Shown in pieces: positions 5,386-22,960 of a DNA stretch of 22,960 nucleotides. Both the position numbers and the translations under genes were made by a program. A model generated the notes under the pieces. That model made no database searches. It was not told the origin of the DNA and was given only the letters and a program-made list of their open reading frames with translations. Each line of letters opens with the position of its first letter. Positions within the stretch are counted from its first letter, which is position 1. Source of the DNA: a virus; the IMG/VR virus record IMGVR_UViG_3300045999_007468, positions 1-22,960 of that record. One strand, written 5' to 3'.

Positions 5386-6300
5386 TTAAAATCCTAATTT
5401 ATCTAATTTTTTATCTATTTCAGCTTTAACTTTATTAACCTTTTTAAGTTCATCCATTAAAGCATCTTTTTCTGATTCTTTAGCTGCTTTTCTTTTATCA
5501 TTTAACTCTTTCATTTTAGCTTCAGCTTGTTTTTTAAGTTTTAAAAGAGCATCTCTATCATCAGATATTTTATCTAATTTAGATGAAGTAGATTTAGGAC
5601 CTTCTTTTTCTTTTTTAGGTTCGTCTTTTTTAGGCTCATCTTTTTTAGTTTCTTTTTCTTTTTTAGAATAAGAAACATCATCAAACCCATCATCTCCTTT
5701 AGTTAAAGTAGCTTTTTTAGGTTCGTCTTTTTCTTTTTTCTTAACTCCCGAATCAGGCAATGCTGTTTTTTCTTTTGGTTCAGATTTTTCACCAGCTGCT
5801 CTACCTCTTTTCTTATCAGATTTACCTAAGAATGGAGTAAAATCAATTAATTCATCACCTGACTTATCTGTAAATGCTTCATCTTCAGGTCGGTTTAAAA
5901 ATTTACGGATTTCTTTATTGTTAAAAGTTGCAGTATCAACACCATACTCTTTACTTAAAGCATTAGTGTCAACTGTACCTTCATCTTCTAGTTTCTTAAG
6001 TAATAAATTAAGTGCTTTACTCTTAGAAACTCCTTCTTCTCTAAATTGATTTAAAGTAGATTTGAAACCTTCCATATCATTTACATCATAAATTGGAGCT
6101 TCATTTAACATATCTTCTTCAAGAGTAGACTCAGCTACACCACTTTTCATCATATCAGCTTTTTTCTTTTGTAAAGCTTTAATTTCTAAATCTGCAGCTT
6201 TTATAGCGGCCATTTTGGCTGCTTTTTCTTCTGCTTCTCCTTCATGAAGGATAGTGCTGATTTCTTCACGTATAATTTCAAGTAATCTAGATTTTTTCAT
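5386..6300 (-). CDS. Leader-bearing Lys/Glu-rich protein, probable internal head or scaffold-type protein
   Basis: The 304-residue product opens with the amphipathic leader MKKSRLLEIIREEISTILHE, ending in L-H-E at residues 18-20. A second L-x-E site, MLNEAPIYD, lies near residues 64-67. The middle (about 150-240) is low-complexity Lys/Asp/Glu/Pro with repeated KKDEPKK units. The last 65 residues form a charged coiled coil. No enzymatic motif is visible. In T4, scaffold and internal head proteins are highly charged, helical and cut by the prohead protease after (L/I)-x-E, so an internal capsid or scaffold role is plausible but inferred. A TATAAATA late-promoter candidate sits 10 nt upstream, consistent with late expression. 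It lies directly before the spanin-like pair and terminase. Confidence 0.8.
   Translation of the reverse strand: MKKSRLLEIIREEISTILHEGEAEEKAAKMAAIKAADLEIKALQKKKADMMKSGVAESTLEEDMLNEAPIYDVNDMEGFKSTLNQFREEGVSKSKALNLLLKKLEDEGTVDTNALSKEYGVDTATFNNKEIRKFLNRPEDEAFTDKSGDELIDFTPFLGKSDKKRGRAAGEKSEPKEKTALPDSGVKKKEKDEPKKATLTKGDDGFDDVSYSKKEKETKKDEPKKDEPKKEKEGPKSTSSKLDKISDDRDALLKLKKQAEAKMKELNDKRKAAKESEKDALMDELKKVNKVKAEIDKKLDKLGF
5611..5732. repeat. Imperfect internal repeats encoding KKDEPKK-type units
   Basis: A 20-nt sequence, ttttttaggttcgtcttttt, occurs identically at 5611-5630 and 5713-5732, with degenerate copies between. It encodes the Lys/Asp/Glu/Pro repeat of the overlapping gene and is best explained as local slippage in a low-complexity linker. 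Confidence 0.6.
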
Positions 6301-6856: not shown

Positions 6857-7090
6857 TTAAAATCTAGCTTTAGCACCTCCTGATTTATACCAAGGCAACC
6901 CATCACCACCTTTTTTAGCGGCTTTCCATTCAGACTCAGTATGCTTAATTCCGTTAATATAATATTCTCTTTGTTTCATATTACCTTCAGGAATATAAGC
7001 TGGTCCTTCTAGGTTATGCATTTTACCATCTAGGTAATAAACGATAGTTCCATCAGGGGAAACTAATTTTTTGGTTTGAGTATTTGACAT
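6857..7090 (-). CDS. Small MORN-like / HxxxGPA repeat protein (77 aa)
   Basis: The 77-residue product contains a repeat of the kind DGTIVYYLDGKMHNLEGPA followed by REYYINGIKHTESEW. This matches the short beta-hairpin repeat (nG..hr.dGPA....G...yy.nG..h.e..w) common in T4-like and jumbo phage proteins and related to MORN-type repeats. Here there are only about one and a half repeats, then a basic Gly/Lys tail. Function is unknown. It is the first gene after a host-type promoter (TTG at 7141-7143, TATATTCA at 7113-7120) and has the AAAATAAAAAGTT leader shared by the first genes of the other units. It probably forms a two-gene unit with the P-loop kinase. Confidence 0.75.
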   Translation of the reverse strand: MSNTQTKKLVSPDGTIVYYLDGKMHNLEGPAYIPEGNMKQREYYINGIKHTESEWKAAKKGGDGLPWYKSGGAKARF

Positions 7091-7104
7091 AACTTTTTAT
7101 TTTT

Positions 7105-7144: not shown

Positions 7145-7381
7145 CTATTGAATTTCATTTATATATTCTAAAAACTCAAGAACAGATTGTTTATGTTGAA
7201 AAGAATTTTTAGCAGTTTCTTTTAACATACTGTCTACATCATGTTCTCCTTCTTCTAATGTAGAAGCAATAGGTTTTAAAATAGATTCTACTATTTCATA
7301 CTCCCCATCTTCACCATAATCATGAACATCATTTAGATAAAGATTAATATATTCTGTTAATTTATCCTTTGATACTTTCAT
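7145..7381 (-). CDS. Small acidic protein of unknown function (78 aa)
   Basis: This 78-residue, strongly acidic, probably all-helical protein has the segments YINLYLNDVHDYGEDGEYEIVES and LEFLEYINEIQ (C-terminus). I recognise no domain. Its start overlaps the 3' end of the DUF6884-like gene by 20 nt in another frame, so it is the last gene of that unit and probably translationally coupled. Acidic small phage proteins are often inhibitors of host nucleic-acid-binding proteins, but nothing specific supports this here. Confidence 0.6.
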   Translation of the reverse strand: MKVSKDKLTEYINLYLNDVHDYGEDGEYEIVESILKPIASTLEEGEHDVDSMLKETAKNSFQHKQSVLEFLEYINEIQ

Positions 7382-7844
7382 ATATGTATTGTTTAATTTT
7401 TGTAAATACTTCCCGTAATTTATTTAACTGGCTATTTAACCATTTTAATCTTTGCCCAAATCTTTTACCACCCATTGGAGTTTCTATATTTTTTTCAGGG
7501 ATATATTTAGTTAGTGGTTTAATATATTCATTTCCAGCTAAAAATATAAATGTATCTTTTTCTAAGTTTAAACCTCTAGATTTCATTTCTTTATAAACTT
7601 CTTCACCCCATTTTTCTTTTTCCTCTTTATTAAAATCTTTTAGAGTTAGATCATATGGTTTTAATTTTTGGTTTAAATTAACTAAATGATGTTTAGCCGA
7701 TAAAATATACATTTTATCAGGTTTAAGGGTTTTACCATACTCTAATGTTTTTTGAAACATAGGTGAAGCCGAATATAGTTCTTGAGCAGGGGCTTCATAT
7801 GATGTTTTAGATTTGGTGCAGCTTAAAAAGACTATTTTGGCCAT
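7362..7844 (-). CDS. DUF6884-like protein
   Basis: The 160-residue protein shows the family pattern: N-terminal KIVFLSCTKSK (residues 3-13), PAQELYSASPMF, MYILSAKHHLV with the SAK motif, a PYDLTL segment, IFLAGNEYIKPL, and a C-terminal PMGGKRFGQRLKWL. I recognise this layout as the DUF6884 family, found in phages and bacteria next to DNA-processing or conflict genes. To my knowledge its biochemical activity is not established. It lies 20 nt after the unknown gene of the MoxR/VWA unit and overlaps the next small gene by 20 nt. A near-match to the late octamer (TATAAACA) precedes it. The family call rests on motif order rather than a search. Confidence 0.7.
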   Translation of the reverse strand: MAKIVFLSCTKSKTSYEAPAQELYSASPMFQKTLEYGKTLKPDKMYILSAKHHLVNLNQKLKPYDLTLKDFNKEEKEKWGEEVYKEMKSRGLNLEKDTFIFLAGNEYIKPLTKYIPEKNIETPMGGKRFGQRLKWLNSQLNKLREVFTKIKQYIYESIKG

Positions 7845-7864
7845 TTATATTTTGTTTATAAATA

Positions 7865-8899
7865 TTAACAGACTGTTATCTCTTTAATAATGTTCTTTTT
7901 AATCATTGCATTCATATGAATTCTAAAACAATTCATAAATGTTTGAGAATATTCAGGATATTTTGTTATTAACATCGGTAATAAGTTATCTATTGTTGCT
8001 GGGTATGTTAGGGTGGATTTTATATGGATGTTATTTTTAAGTTGTTTAATTAAATAATTATAATTTTTATTATTTGTACGGTTTGTTTTTAATCCATAAA
8101 AATAATTAAACAAATAAATAAAATACGGTTTTGACGATTCAAATTCTAAATTAGCCATAATTTCTTTAGCTAATTCCATGTTAGATTCATCTTGACTAGA
8201 TATCATATTAAGTATATTCTCAAATATATCTTCATCTATAGATAATCCTTCATTCGTAACTTTATTTATATGATGGTCATATATTATTTTAAGATTATAT
8301 TTTTCTATATTTTCTTGTAAATTTAAGAAAAAACCTACATTATCACTTATTTTTTTCCCTCCCCAAGATTTACTTATAGGAACACATTTTATTAAGGGAT
8401 AATAATCTTGTATAAAATAAAAATTACCATCTAATGTTGTAAGTTTTTTACATTCCTCTGGTGAGACGAAATAATGAGTTATATTTTCACCATTAGACTG
8501 ATCAATTCTATAATAATTCTCAGTTGAAATATATTGTTGTAATAGTGGGTTTTGAAGAAGAGCTTCTGAGGGTATTATATAATACTCTTCTATGTCTCTG
8601 TTTATATAGGAAGAGTATAGAAAATCATAATTAATAATTAAAGCATCAAGTGTATTTAATTTTCTAGATGTTTTAATATTTAATTTATTTTCTTCAATAT
8701 AATTTTTTAGTTTATAAGAAGGAAAATTAGATAATGGAGTTAAATATACTGTGGTATTATCTTCGAGTTTATTTTCTACATGTTGGTTAAAAAATTCTCT
8801 AGATTTATTTATGTTTTCTTCTATGATATACCCTGTTATATGATACCAATTATGACGTAATTTATTTTGGTATCCTAGTGTTAAAAAAGCTCCTATCAT
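7865..8899 (-). CDS. Unknown protein in MoxR/VWA unit (344 aa)
   Basis: I do not recognise this 344-residue protein. It is rich in Asn, Ile, Tyr and Lys, has no signal peptide or clear membrane segment, and carries no known catalytic motif. The first 200 residues look alpha/beta and Tyr-rich. The last 140 look helical (for example NILNMISSQDESNMELAKEI) and end in Cys. It starts 2 nt after the stop of the MoxR ATPase gene, so the two are almost certainly co-translated. MoxR ATPases usually act on or with a VWA protein plus a target or adaptor, so this may be the third component. A helical-repeat adaptor role is only a guess. Confidence 0.7.
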   Translation of the reverse strand: MIGAFLTLGYQNKLRHNWYHITGYIIEENINKSREFFNQHVENKLEDNTTVYLTPLSNFPSYKLKNYIEENKLNIKTSRKLNTLDALIINYDFLYSSYINRDIEEYYIIPSEALLQNPLLQQYISTENYYRIDQSNGENITHYFVSPEECKKLTTLDGNFYFIQDYYPLIKCVPISKSWGGKKISDNVGFFLNLQENIEKYNLKIIYDHHINKVTNEGLSIDEDIFENILNMISSQDESNMELAKEIMANLEFESSKPYFIYLFNYFYGLKTNRTNNKNYNYLIKQLKNNIHIKSTLTYPATIDNLLPMLITKYPEYSQTFMNCFRIHMNAMIKKNIIKEITVC

Positions 8900-8901
8900 G
8901 A

Positions 8902-10083
8902 CTATTTACTTAAAAATTTAATTAAAACTTTATCCAACATTAATAATTTAAATGCATTTGAATTACCATTATATATTGATTTTACAATATTATACTTTAA
9001 ATCCATTGCGAATAATTCTTCATTCATTAAAAATGATAATCTATTAATAAATGATTTTTCAACTTTATTATTCTTACTGTAATACAAACTGTAATTAATA
9101 ATTCGAGTTGATAGGATTGAGGCTAAATCTGCTCTATAATCTTTATCTTTTCCTATAACCCCCTTTAAAGTATTAAGAACATACTCTTCACTCTCATGAG
9201 TTAATATAGTTTCAGGTGAGATAATTTTATCTAGTTTATTGTTAATAAACATTGTGAACATTGTTGTAAACTCAGACCCAACTGATCCTTCTCCAATCAT
9301 TTGAATAAGATATAAATTATCATCAAACGGAGAAATAGATGAAATTGAGTTAAAGAATGTTGTAATACTTCTTGAATTAGTATCTGTTGAAACTAATTCT
9401 GGATGTTTTAATAAGAAATTAATACATCTGTTATCTATCTGGTTATTCTCAGCCCATTCACTCCAACAATTAATATCAAATTTTAAATTAACTGAGATGA
9501 ATCGTGTTTTTTGGGCGTTATCTATACTATTAACTAAATATTCTCCATTATCAGGATTGGCGGTTAATATAATATGCCAATCTTTAGGTAAAGACCAACT
9601 AATATATTGTTGTCTATCTATTAGCTCCATAACAGCTTGTATGAACCTAATATCAGCTCTATTCCAATCATCTAATAATAAGATACCACCATTTGATTTT
9701 CCACTAATCCACTCAGGTGGGCAATAACTCATTCGGTTTTGACCTGTGAATTTGTAACCTAATTTAGTATATTCTTCAACTGCGTGTTCATCAATCCAAA
9801 TACAATCTGTTTCTGTTTTACATACTTCAAACTGTCTAATTGGAAATCCTACTAAATCTCCTAATTCTTCAATTTGGGCTAAATTTAACTTAACAAAATT
9901 TAAATCTAACTCATTAGCTAATTGAATAATTGTTGATGTTTTTCCAATCCCAGAATCACCTATTACTTCAACTGCTACTGGTAATTTACCGTTGTTTTGA
10001 AGGTAACGATTGTTGTTAATAATGTGAGTTAGAAATTCTTTTGCTTCGTTAATATTTAACGAAATTTGTTTACCATTTGACAT
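8902..10083 (-). CDS. MoxR-type AAA+ ATPase
   Basis: The 393-residue protein is an AAA+ ATPase of the MoxR/AAA_5 type, which remodels or activates partner proteins, typically with a VWA-domain co-chaperone. Walker A is GDSGIGKTS (residues 42-50), Walker B ILLLDDWNRAD (134-144), sensor 1 ILTANPDNGEY (172-182), with a candidate arginine finger at R194 (KTRFISV). An insertion around residues 85-130 between Walker A and B carries several Cys and aromatic residues. The C-terminal third is helical. It has its own host-type promoter and lies just downstream of the VWA-metallopeptidase gene, with a hairpin between. Functional pairing is strongly suggested; the target is unknown. Confidence 0.88.
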   Translation of the reverse strand: MSNGKQISLNINEAKEFLTHIINNNRYLQNNGKLPVAVEVIGDSGIGKTSTIIQLANELDLNFVKLNLAQIEELGDLVGFPIRQFEVCKTETDCIWIDEHAVEEYTKLGYKFTGQNRMSYCPPEWISGKSNGGILLLDDWNRADIRFIQAVMELIDRQQYISWSLPKDWHIILTANPDNGEYLVNSIDNAQKTRFISVNLKFDINCWSEWAENNQIDNRCINFLLKHPELVSTDTNSRSITTFFNSISSISPFDDNLYLIQMIGEGSVGSEFTTMFTMFINNKLDKIISPETILTHESEEYVLNTLKGVIGKDKDYRADLASILSTRIINYSLYYSKNNKVEKSFINRLSFLMNEELFAMDLKYNIVKSIYNGNSNAFKLLMLDKVLIKFLSK

Positions 10084-10105
10084 AACTTTTATTTTTAAAT
10101 TTACC

Positions 10106-10136
10106 TAAATATATGAATTAAGGCCTAAAAGGCCAA
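10106..10136 (-). promoter_or_regulatory. Bacteroidota-type promoter for MoxR gene
   Basis: The minus strand has TTTGG with TTG at 10134-10136, a 20-nt spacer, and TATATTTA at 10106-10113, then the leader AAAAATAAAAGTTATG. The spacer contains the GGCCT hairpin that follows the VWA gene, so terminator and promoter overlap. Confidence 0.65.
10122..10134 (-). terminator. Short hairpin after VWA-metallopeptidase gene
   Basis: The minus strand reads GGCCT-TTT-AGGCC, a 5-bp GC-rich stem with a 3-nt loop, 10 nt past the stop at 10145, followed by TTAATTCATATATTTA. The U-run is weak, so termination may be partial and allow read-through into the MoxR gene. Confidence 0.5.
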
Positions 10137-10144
10137 ACTAAAGA

Positions 10145-11353
10145 TTAATCTTGAATTTTAATAATATTACCCCATCCATCTTGTTTAACATTTTCTATGG
10201 TGTTTCCGTTGGAACATAATACAGTTAACATAGGTTTAAATGTATTTGATGTTTTTCCACCTATGTATCCATCAGTTAATATAATTAAACTGCTATATTG
10301 TTTATGTTGGTTTACATAATCAATAAATGGATTCATATCTGTACCACCTCTACCAACAACAAACTCAGGCATTTTACCTTTATATTCATAGACATTATGT
10401 ATGTTAGCATCACCTTCAGCTACTGTTATAGTAATTCCTGTTTTATACATGTGGTATATTTCGTTGAAGAATTCTATTAAATCTTTTTCTCTTACTGAGC
10501 CTGAAGTATCTACTCCTACTAATACATGTTTTTTAGGTTTGATTTTTAATGCTGGATTTTCTTCGTAACGTTTATTTAATTTACGTCTGGTTTTTTTAGT
10601 GTAAATTTTAGATGAAGATCCAAAAAATCTCCTAAAATAAGATTTCCAATCGTATGAAGGAGCAGTTATCTCAAACATACTATCAATGTAATTCTTTAAC
10701 TCTCCAGGAACGAATCCTCGACTTGTATCTTTTTGATTTTCAACAATAGATTTTATTTGATGTTTAATTTGAGATGCTATTAATTTTTTATCAGCTTCAG
10801 ATAGACTATCAAACTCTTTCCAAGTTGGATGTAACTTACCAGCTTCACAACCATGATTTCCTCCAAAACTTGGATCACCATCTAACATAGCGTTTAATGA
10901 TGGGCTAGTTCCATCTTTTTTAGCTTGTTCTAATAACTCATAATATACTTTTGTACCTGCTTTTTCAGGTAATTTTAATTCAGGGAATGTAGATAACAAT
11001 ATAATATCTTCTGATGGGTAGTATTCGGGTTCTAGATATTGATTAATTTCTAAATCTGCTGCTAAATTATGTAAGTCATGGTTAGGAAACCATTCTCTAT
11101 CTTCTAAATGACAAAAACATATATGGAGTAATTCATGTTTAAGAAGTCCTATTTTCTTCTTATCATTGTCTAAACTATTCCAAAATTCTTCATTGATTGC
11201 TAATTGGTAGTTTATGTTGTTTTTACATACACCAGCAGTTGGTACATCTTCTCTTACTACTTTATTTAATGTTGAAAGAAAAATACCATAAAATGGTTCA
11301 CTTAACATTAACTGTTTACCTATACGGCCAACATCTTCTAAAACATTTGTCAT
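10145..11353 (-). CDS. VWA-like domain protein with DUF2201-type metallopeptidase domain
   Basis: The 402-residue protein has two parts. The N-terminal domain carries a zinc-protease-like motif KHELLHICFCHL (H73-E74-x-x-H77), followed by HNLAADLEIN (95-104), as in DUF2201 putative metallopeptidases. The C-terminal VWA-like domain has an intact MIDAS: DTSGS (D282, S284, S286), GGTD (T338) and LTDGY (D361). Such proteins are usually encoded beside MoxR ATPases, as here. The ATPase is thought to act on the VWA partner in a metal-dependent way. It is transcribed from its own host-type promoter, directly after the terminator of the FAD gene. Whether the peptidase is active, and on what, is unknown. 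Confidence 0.87.
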   Translation of the reverse strand: MTNVLEDVGRIGKQLMLSEPFYGIFLSTLNKVVREDVPTAGVCKNNINYQLAINEEFWNSLDNDKKKIGLLKHELLHICFCHLEDREWFPNHDLHNLAADLEINQYLEPEYYPSEDIILLSTFPELKLPEKAGTKVYYELLEQAKKDGTSPSLNAMLDGDPSFGGNHGCEAGKLHPTWKEFDSLSEADKKLIASQIKHQIKSIVENQKDTSRGFVPGELKNYIDSMFEITAPSYDWKSYFRRFFGSSSKIYTKKTRRKLNKRYEENPALKIKPKKHVLVGVDTSGSVREKDLIEFFNEIYHMYKTGITITVAEGDANIHNVYEYKGKMPEFVVGRGGTDMNPFIDYVNQHKQYSSLIILTDGYIGGKTSNTFKPMLTVLCSNGNTIENVKQDGWGNIIKIQD

Positions 11354-11369
11354 AACTTTTATTTTTTCT

Positions 11370-11400
11370 TAAATATAAAAAAGGCCTCCTAAGAGGCCAA
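11370..11400 (-). promoter_or_regulatory. Bacteroidota-type promoter for VWA gene
   Basis: The minus strand has TTG at 11398-11400, a 20-nt spacer, and TATATTTA at 11370-11377, then AAAAAATAAAAGTTATG. The spacer is made up almost entirely of the terminator hairpin and U-run of the upstream FAD gene, so both signals share the same bases. Confidence 0.7.
11378..11398 (-). terminator. Intrinsic terminator of FAD dehydrogenase gene
   Basis: The minus strand reads GGCCTC-TTAG-GAGGCC followed by TTTTTTAT: a perfect 6-bp GC-rich stem, tetraloop and U-run, 5 nt beyond the stop codon at 11404. It is a textbook factor-independent terminator embedded in the promoter of the next gene. Confidence 0.85.
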
Positions 11401-11403
11401 TTT

Positions 11404-12771
11404 TTACAATAAACTTTCTGCTACATAAATTGCTTGTGCTCCTGATACTGTAATTCCACGTGCACTTAAAGCATCACCTACGAAATGTACATTTGGGTAA
11501 TCAGTTAATGCTAGGTTTTTATAATCCACTTTAACTTCAGGTGATAGATATTTTACCTCAGGAATGTATATACCCCAATCATCTTGTAATGTTGGGAATA
11601 CTTTTTTCATATCCATGATAAAATCCATTACATATTTAAAATAACCACCCATTGCAGGTTCTACAACATGAGTAAGTGTATCTAAACTAATTTGAGTTGA
11701 GGTTACATTATTACCTTCAGATGTTGTTGAGGGTTTACGAGATGGACTATAATACAAACCAGTTCCGTTTGATTGTAATTTATTTACTACATCACGTGAC
11801 CAAGTAAATGGATCTTTAATACCATTAATTTCCATTAATATACCAAAGTTAGTCATATTATTTCTATATGCTTCGTCTTTCTTAGCGTGACCATTGTAAC
11901 TGTGATCCCCATATGTTTCTTCTACAGCAACATAAGCAGCATTATTATTTGTACAAAATGAACGTAACGAAACACCTTCATTATCAAATTTTCTATATAA
12001 CTTAAAGTCATATGAAATATCAATTAGTTTTTGGAAGTGTTCTTGTGGTGCTTCAAATCGAACACCAATTTGAACTGATTTAGGTTCATCTGGGAGTTTA
12101 TAGTCATTTGCTAGCTGTTGAGCAAAATCAATACCTGATTTGCCTACTGCAAATATAAGTTCATCGTATTCTATTGTTGTATCTATATATGGTTTAAAAT
12201 TATCTAAACCATTTTCTTTACCTAATTTATCAAATTTTTCAACTAATTTATTATCTACAAATACAACTTTATTTGTTTTAAAATCAATAGCATGTACTTT
12301 AGTTTCCCAAATAAAATTTACACCTTTATCAACTAAATAATCGTACCATCGTTTTCCTATTTCGTGTAAATAATCTGTACCAATGTGATATACTCCAAAT
12401 AAGCGAAGTCCAAAGTATGGTTTGATAAATTCTGGTTCTTCTGTTGGGTTAGAGTACATAATAGCTTCTGGTTTAGGGTGGAAACGTTTTACCATTTCTA
12501 TAACCTGATCCATTAGATCATATGCTTTATCTTCTCCACAATATTTAGATAATTGTCCTCCAATAGATGTATGATATGTTAATTTACCGTCACTCCAAAG
12601 TCCACACCCCATGAAACCTGACATAACTTCATCAGGTTGGCGTTTGTAAGGGTCTTTACCCATATCGATTACGGTAATAAGTTCTCCAGGGTAACCATTA
12701 TCTACTAGTTTAGTAGCAGCACATATTCCAGCAACTCCTCCACCAACAATTACAATTTTCTTTTTTTCCAT
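11404..12771 (-). CDS. FAD-dependent dehydrogenase/oxidoreductase (COG2509-like)
   Basis: The 455-residue flavoprotein has an N-terminal Rossmann fold with GxGxxG (G10, G12, G15 in VIVGGGVAGICAA) and an acidic ribose-binding end at VIDMG. The segment SGFMGCGLWSDGKLTYHTS is reminiscent of the GxGxxSDGKL motif of the COG2509 uncharacterised FAD-dependent dehydrogenases. The second nucleotide-contact region is ELIFAVGKSGIDFAQQL. The C-terminal FAD motif is VHFVGDALSARGITVSGAQA. Domain order and length fit an intact enzyme; substrate and electron partner are unknown. It follows the homing endonuclease by 4 nt and ends at a strong terminator. As a phage gene it may be an auxiliary metabolic gene or serve nucleotide or cofactor redox; context does not decide. 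Confidence 0.85.
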   Translation of the reverse strand: MEKKKIVIVGGGVAGICAATKLVDNGYPGELITVIDMGKDPYKRQPDEVMSGFMGCGLWSDGKLTYHTSIGGQLSKYCGEDKAYDLMDQVIEMVKRFHPKPEAIMYSNPTEEPEFIKPYFGLRLFGVYHIGTDYLHEIGKRWYDYLVDKGVNFIWETKVHAIDFKTNKVVFVDNKLVEKFDKLGKENGLDNFKPYIDTTIEYDELIFAVGKSGIDFAQQLANDYKLPDEPKSVQIGVRFEAPQEHFQKLIDISYDFKLYRKFDNEGVSLRSFCTNNNAAYVAVEETYGDHSYNGHAKKDEAYRNNMTNFGILMEINGIKDPFTWSRDVVNKLQSNGTGLYYSPSRKPSTTSEGNNVTSTQISLDTLTHVVEPAMGGYFKYVMDFIMDMKKVFPTLQDDWGIYIPEVKYLSPEVKVDYKNLALTDYPNVHFVGDALSARGITVSGAQAIYVAESLL

Positions 12772-12775
12772 TTTA

Positions 12776-13369
12776 TTATTTATATTTCCATTTATATCCT
12801 AAAGCGGTCTTTTGTCTTCCTAATATACAATCTTTTATTTGAGAAGTCAAATTACTTGTTTTATTTGTTTGTTCTTTTATCCATAAAGCTGCTTGACCTT
12901 TACTTTCCCATTCTCTAATTAATTCTCCATTCAAACCAAACATTAATAATGGTTTAGCTTGTTTACGCTTAGCTATTAATATATTTTGTTGATGTTCTTT
13001 AGTAAATGGTTTAAGTTTGCCTTTATTACCTTTACTTATTTTTTCTTTAACCTTATCTGTATAATATTGGGAATGATTTTGTAACGATGCTTTTATTTTA
13101 GCATTTCTTTCAGGAGGTGATATCCATCCTGGTCCTCTTCCTCCACCACCATTATTTTTATTTTCTAATTTAAATCCCCAAGATTTAAATAATTCAATAT
13201 ACCATGACTCCCAAAATCTCCACTCATTATCATCTACACAATCTATTTCAATTATTTTACTGTTTGTTTTTTTATCACCATGAGTGTAATATCTATCTTT
13301 TATTTCTTGTAATGTTTTACCAACATAAAAAGGAATATTATTTCTTTCTAATATGTAAATCTTAGTCAT
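12776..13369 (-). CDS. GIY-YIG homing endonuclease with NUMOD3 and IENR1 motifs
   Basis: The 197-residue protein has a GIY-YIG nuclease domain at residues 3-65. Diverged IYI (4-6) and YVG (15-17) core motifs are followed by R26, H30 and the likely metal ligand E54 in FWESWYIEL. After a Gly/Asn linker come a NUMOD3-type DNA-binding motif (DKVKEKISKGNKGK, about 105-118) and an IENR1/NUMOD1-type C-terminal module (LLMFGLNGELIREW ... LGYKWKY, about 141-196). This is the usual build of free-standing phage homing endonucleases, which cut a related genome near their own site and spread with flanking DNA. It sits between two unrelated genes with gaps of 31 and 4 nt, consistent with a mobile insertion into the unit driven from 13890. 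Confidence 0.9.
   Translation of the reverse strand: MTKIYILERNNIPFYVGKTLQEIKDRYYTHGDKKTNSKIIEIDCVDDNEWRFWESWYIELFKSWGFKLENKNNGGGGRGPGWISPPERNAKIKASLQNHSQYYTDKVKEKISKGNKGKLKPFTKEHQQNILIAKRKQAKPLLMFGLNGELIREWESKGQAALWIKEQTNKTSNLTSQIKDCILGRQKTALGYKWKYK
12777..12784 (-). promoter_or_regulatory. Possible late promoter octamer before FAD gene
   Basis: TATAAATA on the minus strand, 5 nt before the ATG at 12771 and overlapping the 3' end of the endonuclease gene. This is very close to the start codon for a functional promoter and may be chance in AT-rich DNA. Confidence 0.2.
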
Positions 13370-13985: not shown

Positions 13986-14417
13986 TTATTTCACATCATA
14001 TTCTACTTTATCTACTATTAATTTATTTATAGTATTAATATTCACCATTCTGTATCCTCTGGTTTTGGCATCAAATACAGGGATTAATCCTTTTTCATCT
14101 GGGTTGTATGGTAAGGTTCCTCCTTTAAGGTACACTTTGACTCCTAAGCGAGCATTCATTACTCTATTAGTACCATCTTTTTTAGTAAAAGATACTGTAA
14201 AGTATTTCCCTTTAGTACTTTTTATAATTTGAGCAGCTTCTTGTTTAGAAATAGTCCTATTAGGAAATTCAGGATTATCTTCAGGTTTTTCTTGAGGTTG
14301 TTCTGGTTCTTGAGGTTGCTCAGGTTGTTCTTCTTCTGGGGTTTCCTCAGTTGGGGGGTTTTCTTCTTGTTCAAGAAGAATATTTTTTAAAGTATGTAAT
14401 AAACTTAGGGATTTCAT
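13986..14417 (-). CDS. Leader-bearing protein with SH3-like (DUF2693-type) domain
   Basis: The 143-residue product has three parts. A hydrophobic/basic leader, MKSLSLLHTLKNILLE, ends in L-L-E (residues 14-16). A Pro/Glu/Gln-rich linker spans about residues 17-52. A compact C-terminal domain runs from about residue 55, with FTVSFTKKDGTNRVMNARLG and GLIPVFDAKTRGYRMVNINT. That domain matches the pattern of phage SH3-barrel proteins of the DUF2693 type (vtF.KkdGt.R.m ... l.VfD....gyR.vnl.ti). It starts directly at the preceding stop (TAA-ATG, no gap) and is the last gene of the operon. If the leader is cut after LLE, the product would be an acidic-tailed SH3-like protein inside the capsid. Function unknown. 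Confidence 0.8.
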   Translation of the reverse strand: MKSLSLLHTLKNILLEQEENPPTEETPEEEQPEQPQEPEQPQEKPEDNPEFPNRTISKQEAAQIIKSTKGKYFTVSFTKKDGTNRVMNARLGVKVYLKGGTLPYNPDEKGLIPVFDAKTRGYRMVNINTINKLIVDKVEYDVK

Positions 14418-15185
14418 TTATCCTAATTGTTCAAAATCATCATTTATATCTAATAAAAAATCATCAGTTACTCCTTGATCATTAGATAATATAATTTTTA
14501 TTTCACTACCGTATACTTTTTTATCTTTAACTTGGACAGTCTCTCCACTTTTAAACAACCCAATATCACTATTTAATGTAAATACATCTCCAACATTAAT
14601 TTGGCTTCCTTGGATTTCTTTTAGTTGATCTTCTTGGAGAATATCATCTAAAATTTCATTAATTTCTTTTTTTAATTCGTTAGTATTATCTGTAATTTTT
14701 TCTACTTCTTTAACATTAATTACTTTATAACCTATATTATACGGTTGATTAAGTTTATATGTTAAGTAATTTTTAATTGAAGTATTCTCACCATGTTCAT
14801 TAATATCATCTTGAGTAATAGATATTACTATATCATCAAAATCTTTTTCACCTTGATTATCTCTAAAAGCATAAAAAACTTTATATTTAGCTCCTAATTC
14901 AAGATCTCCTAAAAATGAAGGTTGATTTAATATTTTTTGATAGTATTCTTCAGCAGGAGTCATTTCATATAATTTTTCTTTAGCTTGACGGTAATTAAGT
15001 TTAACAATATTTTCTTTCTTTCCATTTCTTCTAATAGTTGTAAGTTCAATTATAAACCCATCATCAGAAAGTACCTTATGTTTCTCACCCATGTAAGTCA
15101 CTATATCACCTTCTTTAAACATAACCTCGTTTAAAGCTTTTTTAAGTTCTTCTTTTATTAATTGTCTTAAACTATTAAATTTCAT
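14418..15185 (-). CDS. Leader-bearing protein with two small beta-barrel-like modules
   Basis: The 255-residue protein starts with the leader MKFNSLRQLIKEELKKALNE, ending L-N-E at residues 18-20. A Tudor/SH3-like module follows (FKEGDIVTYMGEKHKVLSDDGFIIEL, 23-48), then a middle domain (about 85-165). A second charged helix, ELKKEINEILDDILQE (170-185), looks like an internal leader; it is followed by another SH3-like stretch (INVGDVFTLNSDIGLFKSGETVQV, 196-219). The protein therefore looks like two leader-plus-barrel units fused. It overlaps the upstream cupin-like gene by 4 nt (ATGA) and abuts the next gene. No catalytic motif is visible. A cleaved internal virion protein is inferred from the leader. 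Confidence 0.78.
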   Translation of the reverse strand: MKFNSLRQLIKEELKKALNEVMFKEGDIVTYMGEKHKVLSDDGFIIELTTIRRNGKKENIVKLNYRQAKEKLYEMTPAEEYYQKILNQPSFLGDLELGAKYKVFYAFRDNQGEKDFDDIVISITQDDINEHGENTSIKNYLTYKLNQPYNIGYKVINVKEVEKITDNTNELKKEINEILDDILQEDQLKEIQGSQINVGDVFTLNSDIGLFKSGETVQVKDKKVYGSEIKIILSNDQGVTDDFLLDINDDFEQLG

Positions 15186-15484
15186 GATTTATATATTTTT
15201 AATCTTAAATTTCCATCACCTTTAATAACACGATGCCATTGATGACGTTTTATAAATATTGGTTGGTTTAGTGAGGTTGGTAACTCGTTATCAAGTTGTA
15301 CTCCCCAATTTGTTTCTCCAAGTATTTCTATTGTTCTATCTTCATCATCACGGTGCCATAACAATTTAATTGGGTCTATATTTTCGTTAAATTCACGAAT
15401 AATATATTTGTCTGTAACTTCTATGTCAGTGTATGGTTTATTCACTTTCTTTACGCTCTTGCCAACCGTATGATACGCTATCAT
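15182..15484 (-). CDS. Cupin-like small phage protein (100 aa)
   Basis: The 100-residue protein has a core, LLWHRDDEDRTIEILGETNW ... QPIFIKRHQWHRVIKGDGNL, with the spacing of a single small cupin barrel. Two His-containing strands (WHRDDEDR near 43-50; HQWHRVIKG near 81-89) could bind a metal. I recall phage proteins with WHRDxxDR and HRxIKG motifs, but no known substrate. The only ATG is at 15484, giving a 47-nt overlap with the upstream Cys-rich gene in a different frame. No alternative start lies after that gene's stop without losing conserved sequence. It lacks the L-x-E leader of its neighbours, so it may act in the cytoplasm or as partner of the HiPIP-like protein. Confidence 0.75.
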   Translation of the reverse strand: MIAYHTVGKSVKKVNKPYTDIEVTDKYIIREFNENIDPIKLLWHRDDEDRTIEILGETNWGVQLDNELPTSLNQPIFIKRHQWHRVIKGDGNLRLKIYKS

Positions 15485-15875
15485 TTGTTATTGGCCCACC
15501 AGCGGCCCATGTATAACAAGTACGAGCAGAGTGGCATTTAAAATGGTGCATCCAGCAATAACCTAATTTACCATCCTTATCGCTAAGTTTACCTGGCATA
15601 CATTTTTCCATTCTTGGGGAGATATCGAATGCTGCGCAATTACCACAATTAGATTGTTTTGCAATTTCTGGTTCAGTATTCCATTTTTTAGCATATTCTT
15701 CCCAGTATTTCTCATCATTAAGGTTTAAAGGGCCATATTTGATGTAATCTGCTTCAATAGCTGAATTTCTATTTTTAGTATTTAATTCTAAATCTTGAGT
15801 AGGTAAAGGACAAGCCATAGCTGCTTCATATAATTTACCTTCGGCTAAATATTTTTTTAAATCAAAGTTATCCAT
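15438..15875 (-). CDS. Leader-bearing Cys-rich protein with HiPIP-like iron-sulfur motif
   Basis: The 145-residue product begins MDNFDLKKYLAEGKLYE, with L-x-E at residues 10-12 and a second site ending at E17. The body, from CPLPTQDLELNTKNRN, has seven Cys. Four (C77, C80, C92, C107) sit in NCGNCAAF ... CMPGKLSDKDGKLGYC. This recalls high-potential iron-sulfur proteins (C-x2-C ... C-x-x-PGK ... GWC). C114 and C120 and H110-H111 follow. A [4Fe-4S] or other metal site is therefore plausible but not proven. Its first 26 nt of coding sequence are identical to the start of the gene at 20998. It follows the 1073-residue gene by 10 nt and overlaps the cupin-like gene by 47 nt. A redox or structural role inside the virion is inferred. 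Confidence 0.8.
   Translation of the reverse strand: MDNFDLKKYLAEGKLYEAAMACPLPTQDLELNTKNRNSAIEADYIKYGPLNLNDEKYWEEYAKKWNTEPEIAKQSNCGNCAAFDISPRMEKCMPGKLSDKDGKLGYCWMHHFKCHSARTCYTWAAGGPITNDSVSYGWQERKESE
15850..15875. repeat. 26-nt direct repeat, copy 1 (leader module)
   Basis: Identical to 20973-20998. It encodes the first nine residues of the leader (MDNFDLKKY) in the same codons, in front of an unrelated protein body. Upstream non-coding sequence differs. Confidence 0.9.
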
Positions 15876-19121: not shown

Positions 19122-20174
19122 TTATTTAAGACCTGCTAATTTTTTCATTCGGTCAAAATTTTCATTTAATCCTGTTAAACCAGTATCGTCTTTAGTTAAA
19201 TCACTTTTAATATCTTTAAGAGTATCATTAACCCATTTTTCTTGAGCTGGGGTTAAAGAGTCTTGGATTAGGTTTTCTATGAATGATTTAAATTCAGGGG
19301 TGCTTAGTTTATATATTTCTACAAATAAGTACTCTCTCATTCTAGGGTCATTATATTCACTGCTGATATATAATTTATTAACAGCATCATATATAAATTT
19401 TCCATAACGAAGATCATCAGGTTCATTCTCTAATTTATCTACATTGGCTACAGCTCGTGTATTAGCTTCTAAATCATCTCCAAAACCATGTTCAGATATA
19501 AGTTCATATAAACCTTTAATAATTTCATGTACTAAAAATGAAAAATTATCACCCCATGCTTTTATAACTAACTCATCAGTTTCTTCATCATATCCACCTT
19601 CTGATTCGCCTCCTTCTACTTTATCCTGTTGGGCTAACATTGCTAATAACATAGCGATAGCTTCTTCATCATCATAAATTCCAAAAGCAGAATTAAGTAA
19701 TTTATTATATTGTTGAAGTAAATCTTCATCAATTTGGCCTAAAGCATCACCAAATAAATTTATAGCATACGCTCCACGAATTGAACTACCTTGAGTAATA
19801 CCATTAATAATACGACGTTTTTCATCTTCAGGCATCTCAATTTCAGGGATGTCAGGAACAGGAAGTAAAGGTTTTTCTCCACTTCCCATTTCCATAGGAG
19901 GTGCTCCTATTTTAGCTATGATTTTAATGTTTTGATCTTCAATTATAGGATAAGCTTCTTTAACTAAATCTACAGCTAATTTTTCTAATTCAGGAATATA
20001 TGGTTGTTCTATTTCTGCTATACTACCAAGAAGTTGACCAGTAGATCTCATCACCTGCATTAAGTTCTGGTTTCCTAAAAGTTTTTTTCTACTTTCTTCA
20101 GATTTTTTCTTTAGGATATCTACTACTTTTGGTGGGAAGAATTTTTCGTATTGTGCTTCAGTAATATTTTTCAT
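19122..20174 (-). CDS. Conserved phage protein with C-terminal LNENFDRMKKLAG tag (350 aa)
   Basis: The 350-residue acidic, mostly helical protein starts MKNITEAQYEKFFPPKVVDIL. It has a Pro-rich stretch (101-114), a helical block with FSFLVHEIIKGLYELISEHG (211-230), and ends LNENFDRMKKLAGLK (336-350). HEIIKG lacks the second His of HExxH, so a metalloprotease call is not supported. I recall the ending (n.xRMqkLAGl) as a short tag at the ends of many environmental phage proteins; it contains L-N-E and may be a C-terminal version of the leader/cleavage signal. The start overlaps the nucleotidyltransferase-like gene by 17 nt, and the next gene follows after 14 nt. I recall homologous proteins in environmental T4-like phages, of unknown function. 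Confidence 0.78.
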   Translation of the reverse strand: MKNITEAQYEKFFPPKVVDILKKKSEESRKKLLGNQNLMQVMRSTGQLLGSIAEIEQPYIPELEKLAVDLVKEAYPIIEDQNIKIIAKIGAPPMEMGSGEKPLLPVPDIPEIEMPEDEKRRIINGITQGSSIRGAYAINLFGDALGQIDEDLLQQYNKLLNSAFGIYDDEEAIAMLLAMLAQQDKVEGGESEGGYDEETDELVIKAWGDNFSFLVHEIIKGLYELISEHGFGDDLEANTRAVANVDKLENEPDDLRYGKFIYDAVNKLYISSEYNDPRMREYLFVEIYKLSTPEFKSFIENLIQDSLTPAQEKWVNDTLKDIKSDLTKDDTGLTGLNENFDRMKKLAGLK

Positions 20175-20544
20175 TATAATATTTTAAATCATTTATATGT
20201 TTTTCTTTAACTATATTTTCTTTTTTTAACTTCCATTGATATACTTCATCAACAGGAGATAATTTTAAAATATGTCCATCATAAATATGTTCAACATATT
20301 GAGCATTTGGATTTATAAATAAATCAAATTTTAACCCATTATGTTTATATGTTTTTATTCTACGTTTTTCTTTTTTTACTTCAAATAAATCATAAATATG
20401 AATACGATTTGTTGAAATAATGTCTATATCTTTAGGTATTCTATACGGTATAATTCCTTGCAATATCAATGAAACACTTCCTCCAATGTATATGTTAGGG
20501 TATTTTTGTTGGAATTTAGCGAGTAAGGCTACTTCCATCTTCAT
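20158..20544 (-). CDS. Nucleotidyltransferase-fold protein (MNT/AbiEii-like)
   Basis: The chosen ATG at 20544 gives 128 residues starting MKMEVALLAKFQQKYP; the ATG at 20538 is equally possible. The frame is open further upstream to 20613, but that part lies inside the preceding gene and reads as low-quality sequence. The core YIGGSVSLILQGIIPYRIPKDIDII has the GGS...D-x-D arrangement of minimal nucleotidyltransferases. A third acidic residue could be the D of LKFDLFINP. The C-terminal KHINDLKYY resembles the K/R-H-x-x-DL ending of AbiEii-like families. It overlaps the upstream gene by 29 nt and the next by 17 nt. It has no L-x-E leader. Transfer of a nucleotide to a protein or RNA target is possible; the target is unknown. 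Confidence 0.65.
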   Translation of the reverse strand: MKMEVALLAKFQQKYPNIYIGGSVSLILQGIIPYRIPKDIDIISTNRIHIYDLFEVKKEKRRIKTYKHNGLKFDLFINPNAQYVEHIYDGHILKLSPVDEVYQWKLKKENIVKEKHINDLKYYNEKYY

Positions 20545-20998
20545 CAAAATGTTTAAGATCAGGATAATATTCACCTTTATTATCAAACCATCCCGCATTT
20601 TCTCCATCATCACTTAAAGGAGCTGTTCTTATTTCTATAACCCCATCAGTAGTAATTGTTATTTTAGTATCATATGAGTTTGAAGGTGCTCCAGGAGCTG
20701 GGGAGAAATTAGCCCAGGCTTTAATAAGGTATATTCCTGGTTTTAGATTGTTTATAATGTTTTGAAATGCTATGTATTGTGGGTCATCAGGATTGTCTCC
20801 CATTCTTTCTAGGTCATAATTTTCTCCGTCTGGTTCAAGGATGCCTTCAGGGCTAGAACTTTCTAAATACCCATCAGTAAAAAGATTTAGATCATTTATA
20901 TATTGTTTTGGGAACAATCGGCCTGAACCAGGGTTTATAGTTATTTCGTTTAAAAGTGGGTTATTATTTAAGTATTTTTTTAAATCAAAGTTATCCAT
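20516..20998 (-). CDS. Leader-bearing protein of unknown function (160 aa)
   Basis: The 160-residue product starts MDNFDLKKYLNNNPLLNE (L-N-E at 16-18) followed by ITINPGSG, so it combines the MDNFDLKKYL leader with the NEI-type motif. The body is acidic and Pro/Asp/Gly-rich. A beta-rich part, NLKPGIYLIKAWANFSP and TKITITTDGVIEIRTAP, resembles a small beta-sandwich. It has no Cys or catalytic signature. Its first 26 nt are identical to those of the HiPIP-like gene at 15875, although the bodies are unrelated. The start overlaps the upstream stop by one base (TAATG), and the 3' end overlaps the nucleotidyltransferase-like gene. A virion-internal role is inferred from the leader. Confidence 0.78.
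   Translation of the reverse strand: MDNFDLKKYLNNNPLLNEITINPGSGRLFPKQYINDLNLFTDGYLESSSPEGILEPDGENYDLERMGDNPDDPQYIAFQNIINNLKPGIYLIKAWANFSPAPGAPSNSYDTKITITTDGVIEIRTAPLSDDGENAGWFDNKGEYYPDLKHFDEDGSSLTR
20973..20998. repeat. 26-nt direct repeat, copy 2 (leader module)
   Basis: Identical to 15850-15875, beginning exactly at the ATG on the minus strand and ending within the leader. The two copies are about 5.1 kb apart in the same operon and orientation. Confidence 0.9.
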
Positions 20999-21258
20999 TA
21001 GTTAAGTTTTTTAAAACGTTGTACAATTTTATTTACAATTTCTTGGTCTTCCCCTTCATACATAGCTTTTGCTGGTCGTGTTTTAGGGATAACACTAGGT
21101 TTACCAGGGCGTAATGTACGACGTTTTTCTTCAGATGGTGGAGCACCTGGGATTGTTTCTCTACTTGGTTTAGTAGGAGCTGTAGTTGGTTGATTTTTTT
21201 CTGAGAGAATGGCTTTAATCTCTTCTTTAATCATTTTTTTTAATAGGTCTTTTTTCAT
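20998..21258 (-). CDS. Leader plus basic Pro-rich peptide (86 aa), probable internal head peptide
   Basis: The 86-residue product starts MKKDLLKKMIKEEIKAILSE, ending L-S-E at residues 18-20. A Pro/Thr/Arg/Lys-rich segment follows (KRRTLRPGKPSVIPKTRPAK) and the C-terminal helix EIVNKIVQRFKKLN. Counting charged residues after the predicted cut gives a net charge of about +8, consistent with DNA contact inside the capsid, as for small T4 internal proteins. No enzymatic motif is present. It follows its upstream neighbour by 10 nt and overlaps the next gene by one base. It is the cleanest leader-plus-basic-cargo example in the window. Function inferred from composition and leader only. Confidence 0.78.
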   Translation of the reverse strand: MKKDLLKKMIKEEIKAILSEKNQPTTAPTKPSRETIPGAPPSEEKRRTLRPGKPSVIPKTRPAKAMYEGEDQEIVNKIVQRFKKLN

Positions 21259-21626: not shown

Positions 21627-22100
21627 TTATTTAGTTTTACCCCATTTTTTACCTTTTCCTGGGTCTTTACATTTTGCTGCTGTAGGACGACATGATGGAT
21701 ATTTAGAGCGTTTTTCGCCTTTTTCTCTCCCGCATGATTTATATCCTGTTATTTTACCATCTTTTCTAATAGGTGCATTGCAATCAACCCAACCACCTTC
21801 TTTGCCAGGTGTTCCTTTACGTTTAAACCATTTATATAAAGATTCATCTTCTTGGATGATTTCTAGGATAATTTCTTTTAGTTTAGCATATCCTGATCCG
21901 TATGGTGATGATTTGCCTGATTGGGGGTTGTCTGTTTCTTTGATGCCTTTCCAAATCATTCCTTTACGGCATTTCACAACAGCACCAGATTTGTAAGCAG
22001 AGGGTTTATCATATTTACGGTCTGCGATACGTAAACATCGATCACGTTTTTCTTTTTTTTCTAAAAGAATTTCTTGTATGAGTTTTTCTAATCTAGTCAT
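21627..22100 (-). CDS. Leader-bearing Cys/Lys-rich protein, DUF5872-like C-terminus
   Basis: I chose the ATG at 22100, which overlaps the upstream stop as TGATG. The frame is open to 22163, but that part lies inside the neighbour. The 157-residue product starts MTRLEKLIQEILLE, ending L-L-E at 12-14. A segment CLRIADRKYDKPSAYKSGAV and CRKGMIWKG follows. A second helix, YAKLKEIILEIIQEDESLY, resembles an internal leader. The C-terminus, GGWVDCNAPIRKDGK ... CGREKGEKRSKYPSCRPTAA, is Cys/Arg/Lys-rich and resembles the DUF5872-type domain found in phages and large DNA viruses; this family call is from memory. Regularly placed Cys suggest a metal-binding knuckle. Highly basic, so DNA binding inside the head is plausible. 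Confidence 0.75.
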   Translation of the reverse strand: MTRLEKLIQEILLEKKEKRDRCLRIADRKYDKPSAYKSGAVVKCRKGMIWKGIKETDNPQSGKSSPYGSGYAKLKEIILEIIQEDESLYKWFKRKGTPGKEGGWVDCNAPIRKDGKITGYKSCGREKGEKRSKYPSCRPTAAKCKDPGKGKKWGKTK

Positions 22101-22960
22101 CACCAAAATCCTGAAAATGAAGATTTTAAGCCTAATAATTTGGCATATCTTGGCAAGCGGCATGACCAGTAAGATGCTTTTGTTCTATCTTTTTTGTTAG
22201 CACAATCATGACGTGCGGCAAATGCACGACGAGCTTCTGGGTTGTTTATTTTAGCTTTGAGTCCTCCGGTATCTCCAAAAGATACTTTTTTAATTTTACC
22301 TTTATCTCTAACATAAACATAGAATTTTTTAGAGCCTCCACGTTTTGGTTTTCCAATTGGAGGATTTTTCTTTTTATCTTTAGTTTCGTTAAGATTTAAA
22401 AGATCTTCATACTCATAATATACACCATAATCTCTTAATATATCTCTAACTTCTTCTAGGTCGATATATTCTTGTCCTAGTTCAGCTAATAATTCATTAA
22501 AGAAAGGATATTTATCATGGCCTTTTTCTTGTGCTCTATCTAAAATACTTACTAAAGGTATTTCATTAGCTCTTACAGATAAATTAATACCTTCATCTAA
22601 CATAGGTAAATCTAAAGGCACTTTTTTACCTTCATATATTCCAAAATTACCTAAATCAGTTTCTTCTAAAATTTCTTTATCATCATCATTTACATGAATA
22701 ATTTCACGTAAATATAAAGAACGAGCTTCTGCCCATAAATTAAGAAAAGCTTCAGAGCCGTAACGGAACGTGTTTTCGGTAAGTGGGAGTTGTTTATCCA
22801 CATGATATCGCAGATTCTCCGATAATATATCTTTTTTAACTAAACTTTCATTTAGTACTACACCAGGATTACCTACATTATCACAACTATGGCATCCACA
22901 ATTACAAGAGTCTTCTTTAGGGGGTGTAGATAATACTTCTTTAATTAGTTCTCTTAAACG
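22100..22960 (-). CDS. Leader-bearing phage protein with Cys-rich N-terminus and basic C-terminal domain, N-terminus beyond window
   Basis: The frame is open from the right edge to the stop at 22100. A GTG at 22801 could be mistaken for the start, but coding continues upstream without a stop, so the gene is partial at its 5' end. Visible N-terminal sequence reads RLRELIKEVLS, a typical leader helix, then DSCNCGCHSC, a tight Cys/His cluster. Next come VVLNESLVKKDILSENLRYH and DKQLPLTENTFRYGSEAFL, which I recall as a conserved segment of many environmental phage proteins. It includes two L-x-E sites (LNE, LSE). The C-terminal domain has FYVYVRDKGKIKKVSFGDTG, ARRAFAARHDC and ASYWSCRLPRYAKLLGL, another recurrent basic phage module with a possible Cys/His metal site. 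Coupled to the next gene by TGATG. Confidence 0.8.
   Translation of the reverse strand, partial: RLRELIKEVLSTPPKEDSCNCGCHSCDNVGNPGVVLNESLVKKDILSENLRYHVDKQLPLTENTFRYGSEAFLNLWAEARSLYLREIIHVNDDDKEILEETDLGNFGIYEGKKVPLDLPMLDEGINLSVRANEIPLVSILDRAQEKGHDKYPFFNELLAELGQEYIDLEEVRDILRDYGVYYEYEDLLNLNETKDKKKNPPIGKPKRGGSKKFYVYVRDKGKIKKVSFGDTGGLKAKINNPEARRAFAARHDCANKKDRTKASYWSCRLPRYAKLLGLKSSFSGFW

Follow-up and report, generated by a model that had tools for sequence, protein, structure and literature searches.

Why would a T4-like phage encode a MoxR-like AAA+ ATPase and a metallopeptidase fused to a von Willebrand factor A (VWA) domain, followed 2 nt on by a 344-residue protein (P344) of no recognized family? 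The question is raised by positions 7145-11353 of the window, which is the whole 22,960-nucleotide stretch of DNA that we analysed (positions 1-22,960 of the virus record IMGVR_UViG_3300045999_007468); all coordinates below are those of the window. We found that the three genes form a cassette that is optional in many aquatic T4-like phages. We tentatively propose, with a little less than even confidence, that they specify an accessory ATP-driven remodelling or peptidase machine, that P344 is its variable, target-selecting adaptor, and that the target is likelier to be a host or rival protein than a constant part of the virion.

Organization of the locus

The region contains five open reading frames (ORFs), all open and all on the minus strand. 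In order of transcription they are the VWA gene (10145-11353, 402 residues), the ATPase gene (8902-10083, 393 residues), the P344 gene (7865-8899, beginning 2 nt past the ATPase stop codon), a DUF6884 gene (7362-7844; Pfam, 2.9e-40) and a small acidic ORF (7145-7381) that overlaps the DUF6884 gene by 20 nt and encodes 78 residues, 18 of them D/E and 7 K/R. The first three are the core trio; the last two are associated with it. Because each of the five is conserved in relatives and has a ratio of nonsynonymous to synonymous substitution rates (dN/dS) well below 1, we regard them as real genes. The cassette lies near the terminase and portal genes of the window. The portal is of the gp20 type, and its nearest isolate is Flavobacterium phage immuto (60.5%), which supports the view of an earlier note that the phage is T4-like. 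The same note had placed the five ORFs at these positions and had described a metallopeptidase-VWA protein with a complete metal-ion-dependent adhesion site (MIDAS), an unrecognized third protein, a DUF6884-like gene and a small acidic gene, and all of these descriptions hold.

The VWA protein and the ATPase have intact motifs

The VWA protein scores above the Pfam cut-offs for DUF2201_N (2.4e-12), a zincin-type metallopeptidase domain, and for the DUF2201 VWA domain (1.9e-10), and it matches PHROG 1314 over nearly its full length. The N-terminal domain carries the motif HELLHICFCH (residues 73-82; 11108-11137, minus strand). The VWA domain carries DTSGS (residues 282-286; 10496-10510, minus strand), which is completed as a MIDAS by T338 and D361. 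Among 60 distinct VWA proteins, H73, E74, H77 and H82 of the HELLH...H motif, the N-x-A-x-D-x-E-I-N motif and the MIDAS residues did not vary at all. The HExxH zinc motif and the full MIDAS are thus both intact, and the protein is a putative peptidase. The VWA match extends to residue 400 of 402, and the protein has no C-terminal effector domain. Matches of its profile to HD-domain entries in the PDB (E 0.075) were taken as chance. Relatives of the VWA protein occur in more than 300 phage records; many of these records, and PHROGs for family 1314, use the name 'HNH endonuclease', which the domains do not support.

The ATPase belongs to PHROG 1297 and has the Walker A motif GDSGIGKT (residues 42-49; 9937-9960, minus strand) and the Walker B motif LLLDDWNRA (residues 135-143; 9655-9681, minus strand). 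GxSGIGKT, Walker B and the core residues of sensor 1 show no variation among 62 distinct ATPases. The assignment to the MoxR family in the earlier note stands in part. The AAA+ motifs are intact, the Pfam AAA model matches above its cut-off (7.7e-5), the best Foldseek match is the NorQ hexamer, the ATPase profile matches midasin at about 4e-9, and a VWA gene is adjacent. Pfam AAA_3 and AAA_5 score below their cut-offs, and VIA-align on the ATPase model (predicted local distance difference test score, pLDDT, 71) does not separate the AAA+ families. We therefore call the protein MoxR-like, a label based on NorQ as best structural match, the sub-threshold Pfam scores and the VWA neighbour, and not on a curated model.

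P344 is a near-constant companion of the pair

When IMG/VR was scanned with P344, with the ATPase and with an alignment of each, 225 loci that encode a long ATPase emerged; they form 83 clusters at 98.5% identity. All three genes lie side by side in 74 of these clusters. Eight of the remaining nine are on contigs that end too early, so that the trio is present in 74 of 75 evaluable clusters, and only one (L099) has room for P344 yet lacks it. The earlier note had named failure of P344 to co-occur with the pair as the result that would count against it; the opposite was found. The VWA gene itself is present in 84 of 84 loci of the first set that have 1.5 kb upstream of the ATPase. Three gene orders occur, VWA-ATPase-P344 (n=53), ATPase-P344-VWA (n=13, one with an extra P344 fragment) and P344-VWA-ATPase (n=8), and they are cyclic permutations of one order.

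The ATPase/VWA pair is found without P344 in phages LUZ7, S-TIM5 and S-TIM54, Moorella phage MTATph1 and Rhodothermus phage RM378. Since the pair exists without P344 outside this group, P344 is a lineage-specific addition to it, with no relative in isolate phages or bacteria at the sensitivity used: tblastn with P344 and two distant relatives gave no P344 match in isolate phages, and the P344 alignment, run as a single degenerate pattern of limited sensitivity against genomes of bacteria and archaea, gave 586 pattern hits and no relatives. A 353-residue gene of the Moorella phage that overlaps the VWA stop codon was considered as a third component and rejected, as it matches neither the P344 profile nor Pfam. 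Three ATPase matches from 'human faecal phage' records (H47, H50 and H57) were dropped; their metabolic neighbour genes make them look like bacterial contigs.

The unit comprises three genes, not five

We compared pairwise distance matrices over 34 loci; locus pairs are not independent, and the correlations are descriptive. Distances correlate for VWA and P344 (rho 0.78), ATPase and P344 (0.61) and ATPase and VWA (0.61), and after controlling for terminase, portal and kinase the values for the trio are 0.56-0.71, with 0 of 500 permutations as high for ATPase and P344. These values indicate that the VWA, ATPase and P344 genes share a history that is partly separate from that of the phage backbone. 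DUF6884 distances track those of terminase and portal (0.82-0.83), and their partial correlation with the trio is -0.12 to -0.23. The two sets of genes also part physically: one locus (L252) has the DUF6884 gene and the acidic ORF without the trio, and several loci, for example L304, L317 and L328, have the trio without them. As judged from these comparisons, the unit is the trio, because DUF6884 is separable and follows the backbone, and the five-gene module pictured in the earlier note is not supported. The DUF6884 protein strongly matches the PADLOC candidate defence family PDC-M57A (7.1e-48), and its gene and the acidic ORF make up a pair of their own, separable from the trio.

The trio is accessory, gained and lost at one site

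In the window, the cassette site is bordered on the left by the end of a flavin adenine dinucleotide (FAD)-dependent oxidoreductase gene (11404-12771, minus strand; Pfam Pyr_redox_2) and on the right by the start of a gene for a 77-residue protein, g77 (6857-7090, minus strand). Close relatives were fetched by a terminase scan, and most of those that lack the cassette are fragments. In most relatives with enough upstream sequence the gene order is FAD, g77, kinase, terminase, with the cassette site bare. About 50 relatives have such a bare FAD-g77 junction (genes overlapping, touching or no more than 112 nt apart) at the position of the cassette in the window. One of them (L185) has a 92% identical terminase and an 86% identical portal. 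Mapped onto a tree of 87 terminase sequences, the distribution of the cassette needs six gains or losses by parsimony, at least three of them forced by well-supported branches. No such ATPase was found in the complete immuto genome, in Mel-JY01 or in 18 partial relatives (15-74 kb), each covered over its whole record; immuto, which has a related head module, encodes neither the ATPase nor the VWA protein. The FAD gene flanks the site in most loci and is no less common where the trio is missing, and the neighbours of the trio differ by lineage, including helicase-like, HD hydrolase and endolysin/tail fibre genes. Thus, the trio is an accessory unit, gained and lost at one site, and such patchy presence is more in keeping with an accessory role in conflict than with an essential factor in assembly.

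P344 combines conserved and fast-changing segments

P344 had no significant match in Pfam, PHROGs or NCBIfam and no sequence match in the PDB, and its 70 family members had no consistent family match. The predicted structure is of high quality (pLDDT 91.4, predicted template modelling score 0.72). For residues 46-219 (8243-8764, minus strand), an alpha/beta domain with a long insertion, rows 1-16 of the VIA-align result are all BRCT domains (best Z 5.7, 3.1 Å over 75 residues), and CheY-like rows have Z of 3.4-3.7. The helical C-terminal part (residues 218-344; 7868-8248, minus strand) resembles importin-alpha and designed ARM proteins (VIA-align, Z 3.3-4.0). With moderate confidence we describe P344 as a BRCT-like plus an ARM/HEAT-like fold. 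BRCT-like and ARM-like parts are both common among protein-binding adaptors. A sequence match to BRCT was found in none of the 70 members, nor with PF00533 in two carrier genomes. The predicted structure also resembles four viral proteins in BFVD, crAss-like ones included; crAss001 has no VWA gene. An inactive STAND fold was not matched among the best structural rows of P344, which does not exclude one.

P344 changes much faster than its partners. Median identity among relatives is 34% for P344, 80% for the ATPase and 68% for the VWA protein. At similar dS, dN/dS is 0.15-0.49 for P344 (0.25-0.49 in wider pairs) and mostly 0.03-0.08 for the ATPase. Amino acids of P344 are thus replaced several times faster, whereas the catalytic motifs of the ATPase and the peptidase-VWA protein stay constant. 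The change is modular. Residues 49-96 and 205-264 are conserved, and the N-terminus, residues 97-204 and the C-terminal loops vary, above all a hypervariable insertion at residues 97-180 (8360-8611, minus strand), where mean column entropy is 2.2-2.9 bits versus 0.9-1.7 in the flanking core. The adaptor role suggested in the earlier note is borne out as far as P344 is a stable third component that co-evolves with the ATPase and VWA protein and shows the fast, modular change expected of an adaptor; that it selects targets is our proposal.

As a side observation, free-standing copies of the P344 C-terminal part (100-155 residues) adjoin the trio in 10 clusters, usually directly before the ATPase gene (for example, L100 9663-9965, L102 1928-2287, L103 9654-9965 and L107 4875-5204), and could be an optional fourth component.

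Comparison with known systems

The pair is already known in phages (PMC7824862, PMC4193335). In jumbo phages of group 2.2, a MoxR AAA+ gene is likewise adjacent to that of a VWA protein with an N-terminal metallopeptidase domain, and a chaperone role in virion assembly has been proposed (Iyer et al. 2021, PMC7824862). No third protein is described there, whereas here P344 is near-universal and the whole cassette is accessory. The N4-like phages have gp24 (AAA+) and gp25 (vWFA) as core genes of unknown function (PMC4193335, PMC7650795). These are the same two families (PHROGs 1297 and 1314), side by side or one gene apart, although VWA protein identity is only about 25% and LUZ7 has no P344-like neighbour. 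The archaeal virus ATV also encodes a MoxR-VWA couple, p618/p892, but that pair has no peptidase domain (PMC7824862) and no P344, and p618 is a virion component.

Bacterial systems supply a model of action. In NorQ/NorD, the pore of the MoxR hexamer takes up a finger of the VWA domain, the target requires the MIDAS, and the partner is remodelled through ATP hydrolysis (PMC13036017, PMC9976466). NorQ/NorD and CbbQ/CbbO share with the phage pair a VWA partner with a MIDAS; they target a host enzyme, however, and a peptidase domain is not reported for NorD. The ternary MoxR-vWA conflict systems of bacteria (VMAP, iSTAND; PMC7159879) have the same three-gene logic and a fast-evolving third protein. 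Their gene order and third-protein family differ, and the VWA protein here is without a C-terminal effector. The VMAP-MoxR-vWA order was not found; the orders seen are VWA-AAA-P344, AAA-P344-VWA and P344-VWA-AAA. New in this lineage are P344 and its near-obligate association with the pair, the cyclic permutation of the gene order, the comparison with bare sites and the finding that DUF6884 stands apart.

A proposed mechanism and its alternatives

We propose that the trio acts on a protein that varies from one phage to the next, probably by remodelling or cutting it. If the three proteins form a complex, the AAA+ protein would form a ring on which the VWA domain docks, by analogy with NorQ/NorD. 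The MIDAS would hold the target protein, and the zincin domain fused to the VWA domain could cleave or clip it as the ring pulls. P344 would pick the target, with its conserved BRCT-like/ARM-like frame bearing the variable surfaces. The target could be a varying host or rival-phage protein, in counter-defence, takeover or exclusion. The dispensability and exchange of the cassette, together with the fast evolution of P344, lead us to favour such a target over a constant part of the virion. The most specific form of this idea, a retargetable protein-removal system in which an exchangeable cassette aims an AAA+ ring and zinc peptidase-VWA protein, by way of the BRCT-like/ARM-like adaptor, at varying host-defence or rival-phage proteins, seems to us possible and still rather unlikely.

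Several points weigh against a host or rival target or loosen the case for it. The pair is core in N4-like phages that lack P344, which indicates a phage-internal job at least there (PMC4193335, PMC7650795), and the ATV pair acts in tail development (PMC4124505). For P344, dN/dS never exceeds 1 and does not establish positive selection, and the BRCT-like Z is below 8, which keeps the fold assignment moderate. In a few lineages (L317, L328) the trio is at other sites, and the fragmentary empty relatives could carry it elsewhere. The N4-like phages and the ATV precedent keep alive the idea that the trio is a chaperone or protease of virion assembly that folds or processes a variable structural protein, such as a component of the tail or a fibre, with P344 matching the machine to that component. 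The proposal for jumbo phages points the same way, as does the position of the cassette, near the terminase and portal genes here and near a head-protein gene in RM378. We nonetheless consider assembly doubtful, since a phage with 92% identical terminase and 86% identical portal has a bare site, immuto does without the ATPase and VWA protein, and the neighbours of the trio vary among lineages.

A metabolic helper for metal insertion into, or activation of, an enzyme of host or phage, on the pattern of NorQD or CbbQO, would suit both the structural match to NorQ and the oxidoreductase gene that adjoins the site in most loci. That gene is just as common without the trio, though, the peptidase motif of the partner is intact, whereas none is reported for NorD, and with a fixed enzyme as target one would not expect P344 to change so fast; we find this improbable. 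Still less probable is a five-gene defence or exclusion island in which the PDC-M57A candidate DUF6884 and the acidic ORF would serve the trio as effector and partner. Most loci do have the five genes in one contiguous block, and the bare junction lacks all of them, but each set occurs without the other, the history of DUF6884 is that of the backbone, and neither DUF6884 nor the acidic ORF is preceded by the promoter-like site described below.

The pair is core in N4-like phages, and a lineage in which it is optional and tied to a variable third protein offers a direct handle on what it does. Deletion of the cassette would probably be tolerated, and the third protein ought to point to the target. 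Should this be a defence protein, the trio would represent a new counter-defence mechanism; if it is a virion part, the proposal of an assembly chaperone would be settled.

Promoter-like sites and other genes

A promoter-like site, TTGGC-N18-TATATT, lies in the leaders of the VWA gene (11372-11400, minus strand) and the ATPase gene (10108-10136, minus strand). It occurs in 36 of 69 distinct VWA leaders and 42 of 74 distinct ATPase leaders (background 0.9%) and never before DUF6884 or the acidic ORF, which would suit two transcripts, one of VWA and one of ATPase-P344. The motif is similar to the Bacteroidota promoter, which agrees with the nearest isolate being a Flavobacterium phage. A terminator-like hairpin between the FAD and VWA genes (11383-11398, minus strand) overlaps the first site. 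Exactly three copies of AAAAGTTATG are present, one each at the start of g77 (7088-7097), ATPase (10081-10090) and VWA (11351-11360). The VWA and g77 starts have AAAAGTTATGxCAAAT in common, a short direct repeat at both cassette borders and possibly a recombination point.

Many proteins of the window share a short amphipathic N-terminus that ends acidic (LLEIIREEISTILHE, LRQLIKEELKKALNE, DLLKKMIKEEIKAILSE, DNFDLKKYL); their genes are at 5386-6300, 13986-14417, 14418-15185, 15438-15875, 20516-20998, 20998-21258 and 21627-22163. These N-termini resemble T4-type capsid-targeting sequences that are cut by the prohead protease, as in internal virion proteins; the trio does not have them. A GIY-YIG-like gene (IYILERNNIPFYVGKT) at 12776-13369 changes position among relatives (L102, between 3508 and 4374; L009, 2482-3099; L019, 3501-4103), once lying between the ATPase and P344 genes, and is probably a mobile homing-type endonuclease. 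Finally, a nucleotidyltransferase-like motif of the GGS...D-x-D type was seen by eye in proteins of the window (20158-20613), L324 (2425-3117), L335 (3938-4621), L337 (3334-4074), L344 (4231-4935) and L111 (7205-8344). A protein of this type is encoded between the VWA and ATPase genes in four loci, and another after the MoxR gene of Vibrio phage phiKT1024.

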